IMG/VR virus record: IMGVR_UViG_3300049483_000427
Coordinates: 1 to 23,065 of that record
Length of the DNA: 23,065 nt
Strand: one strand, 5' to 3'
Source of the DNA: a virus
A program made the translations under genes and the position numbers. The notes under the pieces were generated by a model, which worked only from the letters and a program-made list of their open reading frames with translations, was not told the DNA's origin and did not search any database. This document shows, one piece after another, positions 9,525-17,013 of this stretch (the stretch's first letter is position 1; each line of letters starts with the position of its first letter).

Positions 9525-9967
9525 TGATCGTCTTCTCGGTCCGGGGGGAGCCGAAGGGGCAGCCGCGCCCCCGAGCCTTCGCCCGGAAGATCGGCGGGCG
9601 ATACGTGGCGCGCATCTTCGACGCCGGTACGGCCGAAGCGTGGAAATCGGCGATCGCGATGGCCGCGCGTGCCCTCGTCCCGCCGTCTCCGGACATGGGG
9701 CCGATCATTCTTCGCCTCGCCTTTTCGATGCCGCGTCCGAAATCCCACTTCCTGAGCGGACGGCTTCGGGCGGATGCCCCTACGTGGTGCACGAAAAAAC
9801 CCGACGTGGACAATCTCGCCAAGGCCGTCATGGACGCCCTGACCGTGTGCCGGTTCTGGCGCGACGACGAGCAGGTTTGCCGCATCGAGGCGAGCAAGCA
9901 ATGGGAAGACGTTCACGCGCTCATCCCGCCCGGCGTCCGCATTGAAATCGAAGGAGCAACGATATGA
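9521..9967 (+). CDS. rusA: RusA-family Holliday junction resolvase
   Basis: Starts at GTG 9521 (or ATG 9524). 'GEPKGQPRPRA' (9-19) is the usual N-terminal block and 'KKPDVDNLAKAVMDAL' at 92-107 carries the conserved acidic residues Asp95, Asp97 and Asp105, with 'RDDEQV' (114-119) adding two more. These are the RusA metal-binding aspartates, which cut branched DNA. At 148 residues it has a typical RusA length. It would resolve recombination or replication intermediates made with the exonuclease/annealing pair upstream, or trim branches before packaging. Confidence 0.9.
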   Translation: MMIVFSVRGEPKGQPRPRAFARKIGGRYVARIFDAGTAEAWKSAIAMAARALVPPSPDMGPIILRLAFSMPRPKSHFLSGRLRADAPTWCTKKPDVDNLAKAVMDALTVCRFWRDDEQVCRIEASKQWEDVHALIPPGVRIEIEGATI

Positions 9968-10575
9968 AGATTCGCGATCGCATCATCGGCCTCGAGCGAG
10001 TACCCGCTTCGAAGCTGCTCCCGAATCCGAAGAACTGGCGACGACACACGGACGCCCAGGCGAACGCCCTTCGGGGGCTCCTCTCCGAAATCGGTTTCGC
10101 CGGGGCTCTCCTCGCGCGTCGAACGAAGAAGGGGTTGATGTTGATCGACGGCCATCTGCGGGCCGAGACGGCCCCGGACGCGAAGGTCCCCGTCCTCGTC
10201 CTCGACGTGACAGAGGAGGAGGCCGACAAGATCCTCGCCACGTTCGACCCCCTCGGGGCGATGGCCGAGGCCGACCACGAAGCCCTCCGCGTCCTCCTCG
10301 AAGGGATCTCGACGGAATCCCCGGACCTCCAGCAGCTTCTCGATTCCCTCAAGGGAGTGGCGGACGTTCACGGGGCCGTCGCCGGATACGAAAAGGCGGG
10401 GGACGACGCGGGCGCGGCCGCGAACGGCGACTGGGCTCTGATCTCCCTGAAGGTCCCTCCGGAGACGTTCACGGCCTACAACCTGCTTCTCGAAAAATGC
10501 CCGGGTCTCGAACCACACGAGAAATTCGCCGCCCTCGTTGCGCGCGCGGCGTCCTCCCTGCGCCCCCCGTCGTGA
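9964..10575 (+). CDS. ParB/Srx-fold domain protein directly upstream of dpdA
   Basis: ATG 9964 has AAGGAG eight bases upstream. The N-terminal domain has the ParB layout: 'VPASKLLPNPKNWRRHTDAQ' (13-32), 'LLSEIGFAGALLAR' and 'LMLIDGHLRAETA' (58-70, the GH.R motif of the nucleotide-binding site), then 'KVPVLVLDVTEEEADKILATFD'. The C-terminal third (about 110-203) is unrecognised and may bind a partner. ParB-domain proteins in phages often accompany methylases, but none is seen here. The gene overlaps dpdA by GTGA, and in bacterial dpd islands a ParB-like protein (DpdB) works with DpdA, so a role in base exchange is a reasonable inference, not shown by the sequence. Confidence 0.8.
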   Translation: MKIRDRIIGLERVPASKLLPNPKNWRRHTDAQANALRGLLSEIGFAGALLARRTKKGLMLIDGHLRAETAPDAKVPVLVLDVTEEEADKILATFDPLGAMAEADHEALRVLLEGISTESPDLQQLLDSLKGVADVHGAVAGYEKAGDDAGAAANGDWALISLKVPPETFTAYNLLLEKCPGLEPHEKFAALVARAASSLRPPS

Positions 10576-11417
10576 ACATCTACCTCGTCGGTTTCGACGG
10601 TCTCGTGAACGGATTTCCTCCGGAGGACTTCCGTCGTCTCGCGCGCTATCGCAACGTCGGGGCCCTCGCTTCGTACTTCAACTATCGCAAGCCCGGTACG
10701 CCGCTGAATCCGAACATCCTCACGATTCGGCGCCTCGGCTGGAAGATGTTCCTCGACTCGGGCGCCTTCTCGGCCCTGCACACCGGCGAGAAGATCGAGC
10801 CAGGAGGGTACGCGGATTTCATCCACGCGCACCGGCAGCACTTCGACGTGATCGCCTCGCTCGACGTGATGCGCGATCCGGTCGCCTCGGAGAAGAACTT
10901 CGCCTATCTCAAGAAGCGCGGCCTCGGGGAAATCGTCCTCCCCGTCTACCACTACGGCTCCGAGAGGAAGTACCTCGACCGCGCCCTCGATGCGTCCGGG
11001 GGACGCGTGGCGATCGGTGGTGTCGCGCGGCTGCGTCCGAAGGACGCCTTGCGATGGCTCTCGGGGACACACGAATACCTCGCGAAAAGGGGATGCCGCT
11101 ACGTTCACGGCTTCGCCGTGACGGGGATGCAGTCGATGGCCGCGTTTCCGTGGTCGTCGGTCGATTCGACCGTGATCCAGAAGGCCGTCGCTCACAACCT
11201 CTTCTTCGTCGGGATGCCGCCGCGACGCCTCGCGCCCTCGATGCTTCTCACGGCCCCGCTGGCCGTGCAGCTCGAAATCGGGAGGATCCTGCGGGGGGCC
11301 AAGACGAGGAAGATTTTCAACGCCGGGACGCGGCAGGCCCTGTGGATGTACTCCGCTCGTTCTTTCGTCGAGTACGTTCAGCGCATGACGGTCGCGAGGA
11401 GGAAACGGAGACCATGA
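10572..11417 (+). CDS. dpdA: DpdA-like 7-deazaguanine DNA transglycosylase (TGT superfamily, phage type)
   Basis: GTG 10572 overlaps the ParB-gene stop; no clear ribosome site, so translation is probably coupled. The protein (281 aa) looks like a short phage-type DpdA: 'MFLDSGAFSALHTG' (59-72), 'FDVIASLDVM' (91-100), 'LPVYHYGSERKYL' (123-135), 'VAIGGVARL' (146-154), 'YVHGFAVTG' (177-185) and 'PWSSVDSTV' (193-201). The order Asp-x-GAFS, D, VYH, IGG, HG, SVDS is that of a TIM-barrel tRNA-guanine transglycosylase relative. Likely catalytic aspartates are among Asp62, Asp98 and Asp198. Only one Cys (175) is present, so the zinc site of tRNA-type enzymes is missing. The role would be swapping guanine in DNA for preQ0. 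The que genes and folE downstream strongly support a DNA target. Confidence 0.83.
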   Translation: MNIYLVGFDGLVNGFPPEDFRRLARYRNVGALASYFNYRKPGTPLNPNILTIRRLGWKMFLDSGAFSALHTGEKIEPGGYADFIHAHRQHFDVIASLDVMRDPVASEKNFAYLKKRGLGEIVLPVYHYGSERKYLDRALDASGGRVAIGGVARLRPKDALRWLSGTHEYLAKRGCRYVHGFAVTGMQSMAAFPWSSVDSTVIQKAVAHNLFFVGMPPRRLAPSMLLTAPLAVQLEIGRILRGAKTRKIFNAGTRQALWMYSARSFVEYVQRMTVARRKRRP

Positions 11418-12013
11418 TCAAAATCGGCTTCATCGGGAATTCCTGCACCGGAAAGACGACGGCGGCCTTCGGCCTCATTGCGGAACTGAAATTCCGGAAG
11501 GCTCTCGTCGGCTACTGCACGGACATGGCGCGCGCGATCACCTTCGCCCCGCAGCTACTCGACACGAAACCGTCCGCTCGCCTGCACGTGCTCTTCCGCC
11601 AACTGGTGGCCGAAACGGAGCAGACGATCCGGCCCGATGCCGACTACATCGTGACGGAGCGCACGGCCCTCGACTGGTGGATCTATTACCGCTGGACGTG
11701 TGAGAACGTGGGCGAGCCACCGTCGCGGGAAATCGAGAATCTCGTGCGCGCGTGGGTCGCGAGCTACGACCTGCTCTTCTTCATGTCCGGAGCCGGAATG
11801 CAATACGTGGACGATGGCTATCGGCCGGCGACGACGCGGATCCGAAACGAGGTCGAACCGTTGTACGCCGAGGAAGTCGCGTGGCTCGCGAAGGGAATCG
11901 CCCGCGACCTCCACGTGATTCAGGGGAGCGACGTGCGGGGGAGACGCGATCTCGTCGTTGCCGCGGCTCTCGAAGCCCTTTCGCCTCTCACGATTCGGGA
12001 GACGAGGCGTTGA
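11414..12013 (+). CDS. P-loop kinase/ATPase-like protein in the modification cluster
   Basis: ATG 11414 overlaps the dpdA stop, with GGAGGAAACGGAG before it. A Walker A motif is plain at 8-15 (GNSCTGKT). 'ADYIVTERTALDWWIYY' at about 76-92 resembles the 'D...ER...D...Y' block of NadR/AAA_28-type nucleotide kinases, and 'YDLLFFMSG' (118-126) looks like the strand leading to a sensor region. At 199 residues it matches small nucleoside or nucleotide kinases. Substrate is unknown. It might phosphorylate a nucleotide or power the DpdA/ParB reaction; both are guesses from its place between dpdA and queC. Confidence 0.7.
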   Translation: MIKIGFIGNSCTGKTTAAFGLIAELKFRKALVGYCTDMARAITFAPQLLDTKPSARLHVLFRQLVAETEQTIRPDADYIVTERTALDWWIYYRWTCENVGEPPSREIENLVRAWVASYDLLFFMSGAGMQYVDDGYRPATTRIRNEVEPLYAEEVAWLAKGIARDLHVIQGSDVRGRRDLVVAAALEALSPLTIRETRR

Positions 12014-12726
12014 GCGTCGAGACGCGAGAGCGCGTTCTCCTCTTCTCCGGGGGGATGGATTCGGTCGCGTGCCGCTATCTCTGGCGGCCCGACCATCTGC
12101 TCTACTTCGACGTGGGGACCCCGTACGCCGCCGCCGAGATCGCACGCCTTCCCCCTCATGCGATCGTCCTCGATCTCAAGGGGCTCGCCCCTCTCACCCG
12201 TCCCGACACGATCCTCCCGATGAGGAACCTCGTCTTTGCCGCCCTCGCGTCCTGTTACGGGGGGACGATCGCGATCGGAGCGACGAAGGAGGATCGGGTG
12301 CTCGACAAGAGCGTGGAATTCGCGGCCCTCGCGTCGCAGCTCCTGACGTTCCTGTGGACCCCGCAGTGGTGGACGACGGGAAAGACCGTCGACGTGATAC
12401 TCCCGCTGAAGCATCTGACGAAGTACGAAATTCTCGGCGCCCTGAAGGCCGAGGGACACGATCTCGAACGGGTCGCGCTCGAATCGTTCTCCTGCTACTA
12501 CCCGCAGCCGTCCGGAGCCTGCGGATCGTGCAAGCCCTGCTGGCGGCGATGGCTCGCCTTCGCGGCCCACGGGGTCTCGTCCATCCCCGACTGCTCCGTC
12601 TACGCCCGGGAGATCGTCCTACCGAGAATCCAGTCGGGGGAGGAGGGGCGCGAGGAGGAGGGACGACTTCTGTGCAGCGTCCTCGATGTTCCGTACCGTC
12701 CGCGTCCGAAGCGGCTATACGATTGA
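12010..12726 (+). CDS. queC: QueC, 7-cyano-7-deazaguanine (preQ0) synthase
   Basis: TTG 12010 overlaps the previous stop (TTGA). It carries the PP-loop 'SGGMDS' (13-18) for ATP, 'LPMRNLVFAALA' (69-80) as in QueC, and a zinc site Cys162, Cys171, Cys174, Cys177 in 'SCYYPQPSGACGSCKPC' (C-x8-CGxCxxC). QueC turns 7-carboxy-7-deazaguanine into preQ0 using ATP and ammonia. The zinc cluster lies earlier than in typical bacterial QueC, and about 60 residues follow it (178-238), with the last part 'LDVPYRPRPKRLYD'. In the cluster it supplies the base that DpdA inserts. Confidence 0.92.
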   Translation: MSVETRERVLLFSGGMDSVACRYLWRPDHLLYFDVGTPYAAAEIARLPPHAIVLDLKGLAPLTRPDTILPMRNLVFAALASCYGGTIAIGATKEDRVLDKSVEFAALASQLLTFLWTPQWWTTGKTVDVILPLKHLTKYEILGALKAEGHDLERVALESFSCYYPQPSGACGSCKPCWRRWLAFAAHGVSSIPDCSVYAREIVLPRIQSGEEGREEEGRLLCSVLDVPYRPRPKRLYD

Positions 12727-12743
12727 AAGAAGGGGGGAGAGGC

Positions 12744-13136
12744 GTGTTCACGATCACCAAGGAATTCTCGGCCTGCTGCTCGCATCGGCTGACGAAAGTC
12801 CCGGACGGGCATCCGTGCGCGCGGGTGCATGGACACAACTACATCGTGGAGCTCGTCCTCGCCGCCGAGAACCTCGACGCGCGGGGATTCGTCGCCGACT
12901 ACCGGGATCTCGACACGTTCAAGACCTGGCTCGACGCGAACCTCGATCATCGCGACCTGAACGCCGTTGGTCCCCTCGCGTTCGGGATTCCTGAATTCGA
13001 GCCCACGGCGGAAAATCTCGCGGAAGCCATTTACACGCTGATCGTCGGCTCCTGGCTGAAGACCTCTTTCGGCCACGCCTTGGTCGCCGTTCGTGTGCGC
13101 GAGACCCCGAAGACCTGCGCCGAGTATCGACCGTGA
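12744..13136 (+). CDS. queD: QueD, 6-carboxy-5,6,7,8-tetrahydropterin synthase
   Basis: I prefer GTG 12744, which has AAGGGGGGAG in place and gives the usual QueD opening (MFTITKEFSACCSHRL). An alternative TTG at 12723 overlaps the queC stop. Zinc ligands are His14, His29 and His31 ('VHGHNY'), the catalytic Cys25 is in 'GHPCARVHG', and 'LDHRDLN' (Asp68-His69) and 'PTAENLAEAIY' (Glu90) complete the active site. At 130 residues the length is normal. It converts dihydroneopterin triphosphate to carboxytetrahydropterin, the substrate for QueE. Confidence 0.93.
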   Translation: MFTITKEFSACCSHRLTKVPDGHPCARVHGHNYIVELVLAAENLDARGFVADYRDLDTFKTWLDANLDHRDLNAVGPLAFGIPEFEPTAENLAEAIYTLIVGSWLKTSFGHALVAVRVRETPKTCAEYRP

Positions 13137-13363
13137 CGATCTCCCGTCTCCCGTTCCGGATCCCGTTCCGCTCGTACTGTCCGCGGTGCGGGCGGATGAT
13201 GAATTCCGACCGCATCCCCTGCGTCTGTCCGATGGTCGCGCGGGCGCGTCCGTTGCGTCCCCCGAGTCGTTCCCCGCTCGCCGAGAAGGCGACGGCTCAC
13301 ATGAAACTTGACGAAGATGAACCGATCGGAGGGAGGAAAACCGACGATGCTTCTCACGAGTGA
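13133..13363 (+). CDS. Small zinc-ribbon-like protein within the modification cluster (76 aa)
   Basis: GTG 13133 overlaps the queD stop (GTGA). 'YCPRCGRMM' gives Cys16-x2-Cys19 and 'PCVC' gives Cys30 and Cys32, a likely single zinc site in the N-terminal half. The remainder is Arg/Pro-rich and may be unstructured. Its end overlaps the next gene by 17 bases. Function unknown; a DNA- or protein-binding accessory to the modification enzymes is only a positional guess. Confidence 0.5.
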   Translation: MTISRLPFRIPFRSYCPRCGRMMNSDRIPCVCPMVARARPLRPPSRSPLAEKATAHMKLDEDEPIGGRKTDDASHE

Positions 13364-13841
13364 TGTCACGATCGAGATCTACGCGTGGGCCGAAATGAAA
13401 GCCCACGAGCTGGCCGCCGAGAGTCGACACAAGGACATCGGCAAGAACGTCGCCTCGTTCATCGGTGACTGGTACGCGGCGAAATACCTCGGGGCCGAAC
13501 TGAAGCACACGAAGAGCTACGACCTCCTCGATCGCGATCTCGGCCGCGTGGACGTGAAGACGAAGCGGCGTTCGGGCCGTCCGTTCCCGCATTACGGCTG
13601 CGACGTGGCGCTGCGGCAGACGGCGCTTGAGCCTTGCGATACCTATCTCTTCGCCACGATCCTCTGGCCAGAAGCGTCGAAGCTCTGGCTTGAGGGCTGG
13701 ATGCCGAAACCCGAATTTCTCCGACGCGCGATCCTCCTGCGGGAAGGGGCGACGAATCCGGAGAACGGCTGGAAATGCACCCAGGATTGTTTCGACCTCC
13801 TCAACCGCGACCTCCGACCACTTCCCGAAAGAAGGCGATGA
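13347..13841 (+). CDS. Candidate PD-(D/E)XK nuclease-like protein between queD and queE (164 aa)
   Basis: ATG 13347 has GGGAGGAAAACCGACG in front. 'FIGDWYAAKYLGAEL' (38-52) resembles the first helix of restriction-type folds (usually G-E..A..yLG). 'YDLLDRDLGRVDVKTKRR' (58-75) looks like the D ... D-x-K core (Asp59 or Asp62, Asp69, Lys71), and 'CDVALRQTALEPCDTYLFATIL' (split over 85-106) would supply the following helix and strand. I do not recognise an exact family and the assignment is by motif only. It is translationally linked to queE (ATGA overlap), so it belongs to the modification operon. It could be a nuclease that spares modified phage DNA, or an inactive DNA-binding relative. Confidence 0.5.
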   Translation: MLLTSDVTIEIYAWAEMKAHELAAESRHKDIGKNVASFIGDWYAAKYLGAELKHTKSYDLLDRDLGRVDVKTKRRSGRPFPHYGCDVALRQTALEPCDTYLFATILWPEASKLWLEGWMPKPEFLRRAILLREGATNPENGWKCTQDCFDLLNRDLRPLPERRR

Positions 13842-14479
13842 AAAGCTACAAGGTCAACGAAATCTTCTTCTCGATTCAGGGCGAGGGGGCGCGGGCGGGC
13901 ACGGCGAACGTCTTCGTCCGCTTCGCGAAATGCAACCTGAAGTGCGCCACGAAAGCCTCCGCGGTGTCTCCGGGCGGCTGGAACTGCGACACCGAGTTCG
14001 AGACGTTCCGCGACATGACCGAGGGGGACATCGTCCGTGCCGCCCTCGATTCGATTCCGAAGGGATCGCGGTACGTACCGAAGCAGCTCGGAATCATCTT
14101 CACGGGCGGCGAACCGGCGCTGCAGCTCGACGTCCCGCTCCTCGTAGCCTTCCATCAGCGAGGTTTCTTCACCGCGATCGAGACGAATGGGACGATGTCG
14201 CTGAATGATCTCCTCTGGCTCGACTGGGTCACGGTTTCCCCGAAGCTTCCGGACGAGAAGGTGCGTCAACGAACGGCCGAGGAGGTCAAGATCGTCGTCA
14301 CGAAAGACTCGCCGATGCCGACGACCGGGATCCGCTCCACCTTCCGCTTCGTCTCCCCCGCGTTCGCGGACGACGGGACGCTCCCGCCCGAGAATCTCGC
14401 CCGTGCTATCGAGATCGTCGGCCTCGATCCCTCGTGGCGTCTGTCCGTGCAACAGCACAAGGGCTGGGGCGTGCGATGA
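13838..14479 (+). CDS. queE: QueE, 7-carboxy-7-deazaguanine synthase (radical SAM)
   Basis: ATG 13838 overlaps the previous stop, with GAAAGAAGG before it. '[23 protein letters not shown]' (split over 6-28) is the standard QueE opening, 'FTGGEPALQ' (88-96) is the SAM-binding GGEP motif, 'AIETNGT' (113-119) and 'SVQQHKGWG' (203-211) are family blocks. The cluster cysteines are Cys32, Cys36 and Cys50 with 'CDTEF' after the last, a C-x3-C-x13-C spacing instead of the textbook C-x3-C-x2-C; QueE is known to vary here. At 213 residues it has normal length. It contracts carboxytetrahydropterin to 7-carboxy-7-deazaguanine for QueC. Confidence 0.92.
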
Positions 14480-15207
14480 GCGATGAACAGGAACCCCCGT
14501 TCCCGGAAGCCGCCGGGGCGGCCTTCGAACTTCGATTCAAGAACCTCACGCGTTCCCGAAAGAGGAATCTGCGGGACAGGATCACGGACAAGATCCTCAA
14601 CGACATGAGGAACGGTCAGGATCCGCCGACCCTCGCGCGCGAGGAGGAGATCCAGAGAGAGACGGTCGCCTCGGCAGAATCCCTCCTCGCGCGGCTGGGG
14701 ATGGATCTTCGACACGCCGACCTCCTTGCGACGCCGAGGCGGTACGTGAAGGCGATGCGGGAAATGACCCGCGGCTATCACGAGGACCCCCGCGCCATCC
14801 TCTCGACCCGATTCGACGCGGACGGCTTCGATCAAATGATCCTCCTGCGAGACGTTCCCTTCGCCTCACTCTGCGAGCATCACTGCCTCCCGTTCACGGG
14901 ACGCGCGCACGTCGCCTATCTACCGGGTCCCCGCGTCGTCGGCCTCTCGAAGCTCGCGCGCGTCGTGGACGTGTTCGCCCGCCGCTTCCAGATTCAGGAG
15001 CGCATGACGAAGCAGATTGCCGATGCGATCGAAAACGCCCTCGACCCGGTCGGAGTCGCGGTGATGATCGAAGCCTCCCACTCGTGCATGGTCGTCCGCG
15101 GTGTGGCAAAGCCAGGGGCGACGATGTCCACGAGCGATCTCCGGGGGGCCTTCCGATCGAACCCGTCTGCGCGCGCCGAATTCTTCTCTCTCGTGCGACC
15201 GGAGTAG
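14476..15207 (+). CDS. folE: FolE, GTP cyclohydrolase I, with N-terminal extension
   Basis: ATG 14476 overlaps the queE stop. The catalytic domain is complete: '[16 protein letters not shown]' (86-101), '[20 protein letters not shown]' (129-148; Cys133 and His136 bind zinc), '[21 protein letters not shown]' (split over 156-176), and '[22 protein letters not shown]' (split over 199-220; Cys204 is the third zinc ligand). It makes dihydroneopterin triphosphate from GTP, the first step toward preQ0. Residues 1-60 precede the usual start and are charged ('[18 protein letters not shown]' inside), with no counterpart I know. It is the last gene of the modification block; a 10-base gap precedes the terminase genes. 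Confidence 0.93.
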
Positions 15208-15217
15208 CATTGCGGGC

Positions 15218-15733
15218 GTGAAGAAGAAGGGTCAACGGATCCTCGTCCACTATCCCCCGAAGGCCGGGCCCCGCCTCCTGATCCTCATCTTCCCGGAGAT
15301 CGTGGACAACGTAGTGCGTGCGGTGTCCGAGGGACAGCCCCTGAAGCTCGCGTGCCGACAGGGGAAGATCTCGGAGCAGACGCTGCACAACTATCTCAAT
15401 GCCGGTGAGGCGGTTGCGGAGGAACGGGACAAGGCGCTCACCGAGGGGCAGCCGTTTGCAATCTCGGAATCCCAGCAGGCCGTCTTGCAATTCTTCGAGC
15501 GGGTGAGGGAGGCACAGGCGATCTCGAATCGACGCGAGGTCGGACTGATTTCCGTCGCGGCGAAGAAGGACTGGAAGGCCGCCGCGTTCCTGCTGCAGAA
15601 CAAGCATCCGCAGGCATTCCCCGTCCGTTCCGGAGGAGGATCCGCCTCCGTCACGACGACGAATCAGGAAGGCGTCTCACAGGTAGTCGAGTTTTCGTGG
15701 GCGGACGGTACACCGGATAACGAGGGGCCGTGA
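15218..15733 (+). CDS. terS: Terminase small subunit-like protein
   Basis: GTG 15218 follows folE by 10 bases with GGAG somewhat far upstream. The product (171 aa) has a helix-turn-helix-like block 'AVSEGQPLKLACRQGKISEQTLHNYL' (split over about 35-60), then helices ('ERVREAQAISNRREVGLISVAAKKDWKAAAFLL' split over about 90-125), which matches phage small terminases that bind the packaging site. It overlaps the large terminase by GTGA, the normal order. The N-terminal part (MKKKGQRILVHYPPK) is unusual but short. Confidence 0.78.
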   Translation: MKKKGQRILVHYPPKAGPRLLILIFPEIVDNVVRAVSEGQPLKLACRQGKISEQTLHNYLNAGEAVAEERDKALTEGQPFAISESQQAVLQFFERVREAQAISNRREVGLISVAAKKDWKAAAFLLQNKHPQAFPVRSGGGSASVTTTNQEGVSQVVEFSWADGTPDNEGP

Positions 15734-17013
15734 TCTTCCGCTGGCCGCGCCTCCACAACGGCGGCCAGGAGGAGGTTGCGCTTCATCCGGCGCGATTCAA
15801 GGTCCTCGCCGCGGGGCGGCGTTGGGGGAAGTCAAAGCTCGGGGCCTTGATGGCGATCCGTTCCGGGATGAAGGGGGGGTACGCGTGGTGGATCTCCCCG
15901 ACATACAAGATGGCCCTGATGGGCTGGCGCGAGCTGATTCGCTTCGCGAAGCTCATCCCGGGGGCGGACGTGAATCAGTCGGAACGAACGATCTTCTTCC
16001 CCCCGTGTCGTTCCGGAGCACAGCCGGGATACGTGCAGGTCCGTTCCGCGTCGGATCCTGATTCCCTCCGGGGAGAGGGCCTCAACTTCGCCTACCTCGA
16101 TGAATTCGCGTTTCAACAGCGCGAGGTCTGGACCCATTCCATTCGTCCCGCTCTGGCGGATCGTCGCGGCAAGGCACTCTTCGGCTCGACACCGTTCGGA
16201 CAGAATCATTTTTGGGATCTTTTCCAGCAGGGTCTTCGATGGGGCGATCCCGGAGTCGAGATCAAGTCGTGGCACTTCCCGTCCGCGAAAAACCCATATC
16301 TCGATGAGGCCGAGATCGAGGCGGCCCGGCGCGAAATGCCCGAGGACGCTTTCCGGCAGGAACACCTTGCGGAATTCCTCGAAGACGGAGCGGGAGTGTT
16401 CCGGGGAATCTCCGGGATCCTCGACCCGCGATTGCACTTCAAGGAATCGGGGACGGGACGATTCCATATCATCGGCTGGGACCCCGCGAAATTTGCCGAC
16501 TTCAACGTGACCACGGTTCTCGACGTGAATGCCGGGGAGATCGTGAACGTGACGCGCTCGAATCGACGCCCGCTGATGGAGCAGTTACGCGACGTGATCG
16601 CCCTCCAGAAGAAGTTTCCCGGCGTCGTGTTCCTCGATGCGACTCGCGACGACACGCTCCTCGAGCTGGCCCAGGCGAATGGTCTGTGGGTCGAAGCCAT
16701 CCGCTTCACCGTCGAGTTGAAACGACGCATGGTGAACGCCCTCTCTCTCGCGATCGAGAAGAAGAAGTTCCGAATGCCGCTCCTCGGAAGCGAGGTCGCG
16801 GTCGGGGAGTTAAAATCGTTTCGCTATGAGATCGGCAAGAGCGGGCACGTCACCTATGCCGCCCCGCCCGGAATGCACGACGACCACGTGACGGCCCTCG
16901 GCCTCTGTGCCCTCGGGATGGGCTCGCGCCTGATGTACGACGGAGAGGGGCGGCCCACCGAGACCGATCTCCCTCGCCCTGAATCACTCTCGGACGGATG
17001 GGGGAGCCTATGA
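15730..17013 (+). CDS. terL: Terminase large subunit (packaging ATPase-nuclease)
   Basis: GTG 15730 overlaps the small-subunit stop. Walker A is 'AGRRWGKS' (28-35), Walker B 'FAYLDEF' (120-126), and the coupling motif 'GSTPFG' (152-157) follows. The nuclease half shows Asp251 ('GWDPAKFADF'), Asp303 ('FLDATRDD') and the 'HDDHVTAL' block (383-390). At 427 residues it is a compact terminase. It pumps DNA into the prohead and cuts it. Position before portal and head genes is standard. Confidence 0.92.
   Translation: MIFRWPRLHNGGQEEVALHPARFKVLAAGRRWGKSKLGALMAIRSGMKGGYAWWISPTYKMALMGWRELIRFAKLIPGADVNQSERTIFFPPCRSGAQPGYVQVRSASDPDSLRGEGLNFAYLDEFAFQQREVWTHSIRPALADRRGKALFGSTPFGQNHFWDLFQQGLRWGDPGVEIKSWHFPSAKNPYLDEAEIEAARREMPEDAFRQEHLAEFLEDGAGVFRGISGILDPRLHFKESGTGRFHIIGWDPAKFADFNVTTVLDVNAGEIVNVTRSNRRPLMEQLRDVIALQKKFPGVVFLDATRDDTLLELAQANGLWVEAIRFTVELKRRMVNALSLAIEKKKFRMPLLGSEVAVGELKSFRYEIGKSGHVTYAAPPGMHDDHVTALGLCALGMGSRLMYDGEGRPTETDLPRPESLSDGWGSL

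Follow-up and report, generated by a model that had tools for sequence, protein, structure and literature searches.

Which modified base does a phage place in its DNA when its deazaguanine genes include a QueC that has lost the signature motifs of the enzyme? The question is raised by IMG/VR virus record IMGVR_UViG_3300049483_000427, a linear fragment of 23,065 bases, the whole of which is called the window here. The record derives from a tailed phage, with Mu-type portal and MuF proteins, a T4-type terminase large subunit, a YqaJ exonuclease and RusA. Its cassette at 9964-15207 has every gene on the plus strand, with stop and next start codons overlapping mostly by 4 bases, in the order ParB-like, DpdA, AAA_28 kinase, QueC family, QueD, zinc-ribbon-like open reading frame (ORF), nuclease-like ORF, QueE and FolE, followed by the genes for the small and large terminase subunits (Table 1). 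Five core genes (FolE, QueD, QueE, the QueC family member and DpdA) span 10572-15207 co-directionally, with family matches far above chance. This confirms the five assignments of an earlier sequence-only reading of the locus, which had drawn the limits of the run too narrowly: it starts earlier, with the ParB-like gene, and also holds the kinase and the two ORFs between QueD and QueE.

We consider it highly likely that this is a self-contained cassette that makes a deazaguanine base from GTP for insertion into phage DNA by DpdA, with a divergent QueC carrying out the last step of base synthesis. Its identity as a deazaguanine DNA modification cassette is well supported, because all of the parts show homology, the run is unbroken and coupled, and the gene order is shared with phages whose DNA carries dPreQ0, the deoxynucleoside of preQ0 (7-cyano-7-deazaguanine). 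In the proposed pathway, FolE, QueD and QueE would turn GTP into 7-carboxy-7-deazaguanine (CDG), as their strong homology to tested enzymes suggests, and the QueC-family enzyme would activate the CDG carboxylate with ATP and then aminate it. DpdA, probably together with the ParB-like protein, would swap guanine for this product in replicated phage DNA, an exchange predicted from homology, and the modified virion DNA would then be expected to resist some host restriction enzymes. The modified guanine is probably camouflage against these enzymes.

A cassette of this kind is already known, and it is the QueC and the QueE that make the window's copy a variant. The DpdA homolog, FolE, QueD, QueE and, at the family level, QueC of Hutinet group 2 (the phage preQ0/DpdA cassette) are all present in the window. 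Phage TA17A, of the Rosebush group (B2 cluster) of mycobacteriophages, shares the order ParB-DpdA-QueC-QueD-QueE-FolE and the 4-base overlaps, and the cassette of CRB2 (PMC6392294) has the same order with terminase genes next to it, as in the window. About 28% of G in Rosebush DNA is dPreQ0, and in CAjan DNA the figure is 32%, lost upon deletion of dpdA (PMC6884629). However, the QueC of TA17A is canonical (YGQRH, YPDC) and its QueE has a CX3CX2C motif, in both of which the window differs, and the TA17A and CRB2 cassettes lack the kinase, zinc-ribbon-like and nuclease-like insertions. The same cassette order was found in a prophage of Phocaeicola plebeius DSM 17135 (Bacteroidota) and in an Acidobacteria contig, again with the three inserted genes absent and with next genes that are terminase-like by position and sequence. 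The clusters of CAjan (Seuratvirus) and 9g (Nonagvirus), which use DpdA1, have the same DpdA family, FolE, QueD and QueE as the window but a different gene order and no ParB annotated beside dpdA; the QueC of CAjan is canonical, and the Gat-QueC of 9g makes deoxyarchaeosine (dG+).

The window QueC matches PF06508 at 1e-15 (58 bits, gathering cut-off 22) and the NCBIfam equivalog TIGR00364 at 35.5 bits, under the cut-off of 150.3. Both the YxQxHxxE and the YPDC motifs of canonical QueC are lost: relative to E. coli QueC, Y35 is replaced by V, Q37 by T and H39 by Y, and YPDC reads VLDK. The residues kept are SGGMDS, E42, R99, N100, D133, K165, Y189, the C-Y pair and the zinc cysteines, whose C-x8-CxxCxxC motif is present as CYYPQPSGACGSCKPC. 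E. coli QueC requires Y35, R99, Y131 and Y189, and the Y35A and Y131A substitutions abolish its activity (PMC13329287). In a tree, the window protein belongs to a clade, here designated QueC', that stands apart from canonical QueC and Gat-QueC with support of 100/99. Across an alignment of 39 deduplicated phage and prophage members of this clade, position 35 is Tyr only once, position 39 is Tyr and the last position of YPDC is Lys in 32 of 39 each, and E43, R72, N73, D99, K138 (window numbering) and the four cysteines are invariant. The QueC' type is absent from all six reference phages checked (CAjan, Dp-1, nt-1, HVTV-1, CP220 and TA17A, the last standing for Rosebush), whose QueC proteins score 156-251 bits to PF06508 and keep Y35; the QueC' proteins of BS162P1, NCTB and MT835482 score 36-48 bits. 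An annotated phage collection yielded 4 identified QueC' records versus 303 matched by E. coli QueC. Descent from Gat-QueC was considered and rejected: Gat-QueC of Pseudomonas and Vibrio appeared among the tblastn matches, but the tree splits them off, and the gene upstream of the window QueC encodes a kinase rather than a Gat domain. One phage contig (L053) carries tandem QueC-family genes at 726-1418 and 1430-2140, one of them QueC' and the other divergent.

What QueC' makes may be preQ0, 7-amido-7-deazaguanine (ADG) or another CDG derivative, and is not readable from sequence. There is a fair chance, somewhat short of even, that QueC' does make preQ0, with other side chains, such as the clade-conserved Tyr39 and Lys100, standing in for the lost tyrosines; the base would then be dPreQ0, as it is in Rosebush and CAjan. 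The place of QueC' in the cassette is that of QueC in the syntenic Rosebush cassette, which yields dPreQ0 (PMC6884629), the protein keeps the zinc site, the RN pair, D133 and K165 along with Tyr39 and Lys100 (each in 32 of 39 sequences), and no tailoring enzyme was seen among the window proteins scanned. Set against this are the inactivity of the Y35A and Y131A variants of E. coli QueC and the argument that loss of the signature predicts loss of preQ0 synthesis (PMC13329287). The sequence-only reading had described a complete cluster with all steps from GTP to preQ0 and had expected at least dPreQ0 in the phage genome. The modification cassette stands; the remainder finds no support, as the QueC lies outside the canonical clade without tyrosines needed in the E. 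coli enzyme, and the six reference phages have the other type of QueC.

The altered pocket residues of QueC' are also compatible with an enzyme that halts at the amide ADG, leaving dADG in the DNA, a reading that we regard as rather unlikely. In phage CP220, 100% of G is reported as dADG (PMC8306585), and its QueC (locus L116, 100978-101595) is the only one among the reference phages checked in which Tyr131 is replaced by Phe and Gln37 by Ser. This correlation comes from a single phage, however, and CP220 QueC retains Tyr35 as well as residues resembling YPDC, with a score (156 bits) in the canonical range. The CP220 substitutions are, in their own right, a possible clue to an amide-stopping QueC.

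An AlphaFold2 (AF2) model of QueC' has a predicted local distance difference test (pLDDT) score of 94.1 and matches QueC 3bl5 (Z 15.8), QueC 2pg3 (15.6), QatC 9y02 (15.3) and Cap9 9nto (14.6); the QatC alignment covers 203 residues and includes the C-terminal tail. Profile matches were also obtained to Cap9 (4e-9) and QatC (1e-5). By this predicted fold, QueC' most likely activates CDG with ATP, sharing with QatC and Cap9 the ATP-binding loop and the CDG-activating chemistry. Since the Z scores for QueC, QatC and Cap9 are nearly tied, fold alone cannot separate preQ0 synthesis, a stop at ADG and ligation to another amine. These matches speak for QueC' as a CDG ligase like QatC or Cap9, or an enzyme that joins CDG to a non-ammonia amine, whose product would then be either an adduct on a protein or a CDG-derived base of a new type. 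This is doubtful, as Cap9 retains the YxDC residues that QueC' has lost, and neither QatA, QatB, QatD nor a CD-NTase occurs among the neighboring genes examined (FolE/QueD/QueE/DpdA/ParB and terminase). Unlike QatC and Cap9, QueC' is without defense partners among these neighbors and is coupled to DpdA and the genes for de novo CDG synthesis, an association that points to DNA.

Scans of viral contigs with single window proteins (DpdA, QueC and the kinase) found no close relatives, and profile searches were therefore used. About 60 QueC' loci were found, with DpdA in 56 of 60 and always on the same strand, although some loci are near-copies of one another, which makes these counts too high. QueC' and DpdA are direct neighbors in 39 loci; DpdA comes first in 26 of these and QueC' in 13, and adjacency in both orders suggests that the two are tied by function, not through a single operon passed on unchanged. 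Bacterial genomes with a QueC' prophage also encode their own canonical QueC. This bears on whether the genes boost queuosine in host tRNA instead of modifying DNA, given that FolE, QueD, QueE and QueC also feed queuosine and occur in some phages that lack DpdA (PMC6884629). With the DpdA and ParB genes coupled to them here and a canonical QueC already in the prophage-bearing genomes, we judge this very improbable. For QueC' itself, we propose only tentatively, as a possibility well below an even chance, that its function is a distinct one: as a phage-specific enzyme that activates CDG, it would act together with DpdA and yield, instead of preQ0, either ADG or a CDG amide new to phage DNA.

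The window DpdA matched 212 phage records by tblastn, and blastp gave matches to the DpdA of 9g (4e-13), CAjan and Quinobequin; for the first two, in vivo tests have been published (PMC6884629). It retains FLDSGAF, the GG pair, HGF and SVDS, and with this homology to verified DpdA and these conserved catalytic motifs the assignment is unlikely to fail. Two further loci, L003 (8677-10875) and L059 (8680-10878), have DpdA ORFs of 732 aa; by its alignment the L003 protein has a long intein-like insertion at the conserved SxDS catalytic site, and L059 was judged by length alone. The ParB-like gene overlaps the dpdA start by 4 bases. A ParB profile built without the window copy recovers the window gene at 6e-13, and gave 32 matches in the 7,726 ORFs of all loci, 24 of them immediately upstream of DpdA and most others adjoining it. 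In bacteria, DpdA works with DpdB, an ATPase resembling ParB (PMC12839542), and ORF1 of CRB2 was earlier suggested as a DpdB homolog (PMC6392294). The ParB-like gene is a member of the system, and because of this adjacency, the joint action of DpdB and DpdA and the CRB2 suggestion, its product is likely a partner of DpdA. The bacterial Dpd system (DpdA, DpdB, DpdC) resembles the window in pairing a transglycosylase with a ParB-like protein. In contrast to the bacterial system, the window DpdA is of the short phage type and would serve protection of phage DNA rather than host defense. No DpdC-type protein was matched among the proteins scanned, which were part of the window ORFs on a fragmentary record. 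QueF, ArcS and a Gat domain were likewise not found in this set; QueF matches fell on FolE below cut-off, and as the two share the T-fold, QueF is not claimed.

The cluster cysteines of QueE are spaced CX3CX13C (Cys32, Cys36, Cys50). The motifs described for QueE are CX3CX2C and CX14CX2C (PMC4389238), and the match to TIGR04508, at 2.2e-40, lies under the family cut-off. Related spacings occur elsewhere, with CX3CX13C in locus L072, CX3CX12C in L013, CX3CX9C in L066 and L067 and CX3CX8C in Bacteroides-type phages, and the first and third cysteines are invariant across 24 sequences. The AF2 model (pLDDT 90.5) has QueE 4njg as its best solved match (Z 24.1, root mean square deviation 2.4, 200 aligned residues) and is least sure at loop 31-50 (pLDDT 57-70). 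The QueE proteins of L037, L039 and L040 have CX5CX6C, a further spacing outside the described motifs. The sequence-only reading had seen catalytic and metal residues in every enzyme, which proved wrong for QueC and, in the spacing of its cysteines, for QueE; the profile searches it had suggested place FolE, QueD, QueE, QueC and DpdA in their families, with QueC under the TIGR00364 cut-off and QueE under that of TIGR04508.

Several points weigh against the self-contained cassette. The window QueC is without Y35 and Y131, which are essential in E. coli QueC, and QueE fits neither described cysteine motif. Against solved structures, a profile of four DpdA sequences gave no significant match, with bacterial DpdA 7ui4 at E 0.65 only, and the record is a fragment without a known host.

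Compared with related cassettes, the window has three extra genes: the kinase, which had no homolog in any related cassette compared, the zinc-ribbon-like ORF, which had no family match in hidden Markov model (HMM) scans, and the nuclease-like ORF, which had no HMM match and for which MW202701 was the sole relative found (33%). If the last is a PD-(D/E)XK nuclease within the cassette, it might cleave unmodified host DNA.

Table 1. Genes of the modification cassette and the adjoining terminase genes in the window.
Feature	Coordinates	Strand	Basis
ParB-like protein, probable DpdA partner (bacterial DpdB counterpart)	9964..10575	+	phrog_620/498 ParB-like matches
DpdA, DNA guanine transglycosylase, GTG start	10572..11417	+	phrog_887 5.8e-31; blastp; conserved motifs
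AAA_28 P-loop kinase/ATPase, between dpdA and queC	11414..12013	+	PF13521 3e-8, phrog_2107 2e-14
QueC-family protein, divergent phage clade (QueC'), TTG start	12010..12726	+	PF06508 1e-15
QueD, 6-carboxytetrahydropterin synthase	12723..13136	+	PF01242 (PTPS) 3.6e-27, TIGR03367 1.9e-21; CxxxHGHNY and LDHRDLN
Small ORF, CPRCG...C.C zinc-ribbon-like pattern	13133..13363	+	sequence pattern only
ORF, possible PD-(D/E)XK-type nuclease	13347..13841	+	invariant DVKTK
QueE, CDG synthase, CX3CX13C cluster motif	13838..14479	+	TIGR04508 2.2e-40 (under cut-off), phrog_2076 4e-31
FolE, GTP cyclohydrolase I	14476..15207	+	PF01227 (GTP_cyclohydroI) 7e-67; NF006825 4e-71, above cut-off
Terminase small subunit, directly after cassette	15218..15733	+	phrog_4102 3e-13
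Terminase large subunit	15730..17013	+	PF03237 1e-9

Taken together, these results bear on the use of gene content to predict the deazaguanine of a phage, as the proteins of the QueC' clade do not follow the residue rules for preQ0 synthesis but have kept their link with DpdA. Two questions become testable: which residues allow QueC to go beyond the amide to the nitrile, and whether phage DpdA systems in general include a ParB-like partner. Material for such tests exists in the P. plebeius prophage and in BS162P1, an isolated Bacteroides phage that has QueC' and also a gene of the DpdA family. If the base made by QueC' is other than preQ0, gene content would mispredict the modified base of a whole group of phages of several bacterial phyla.

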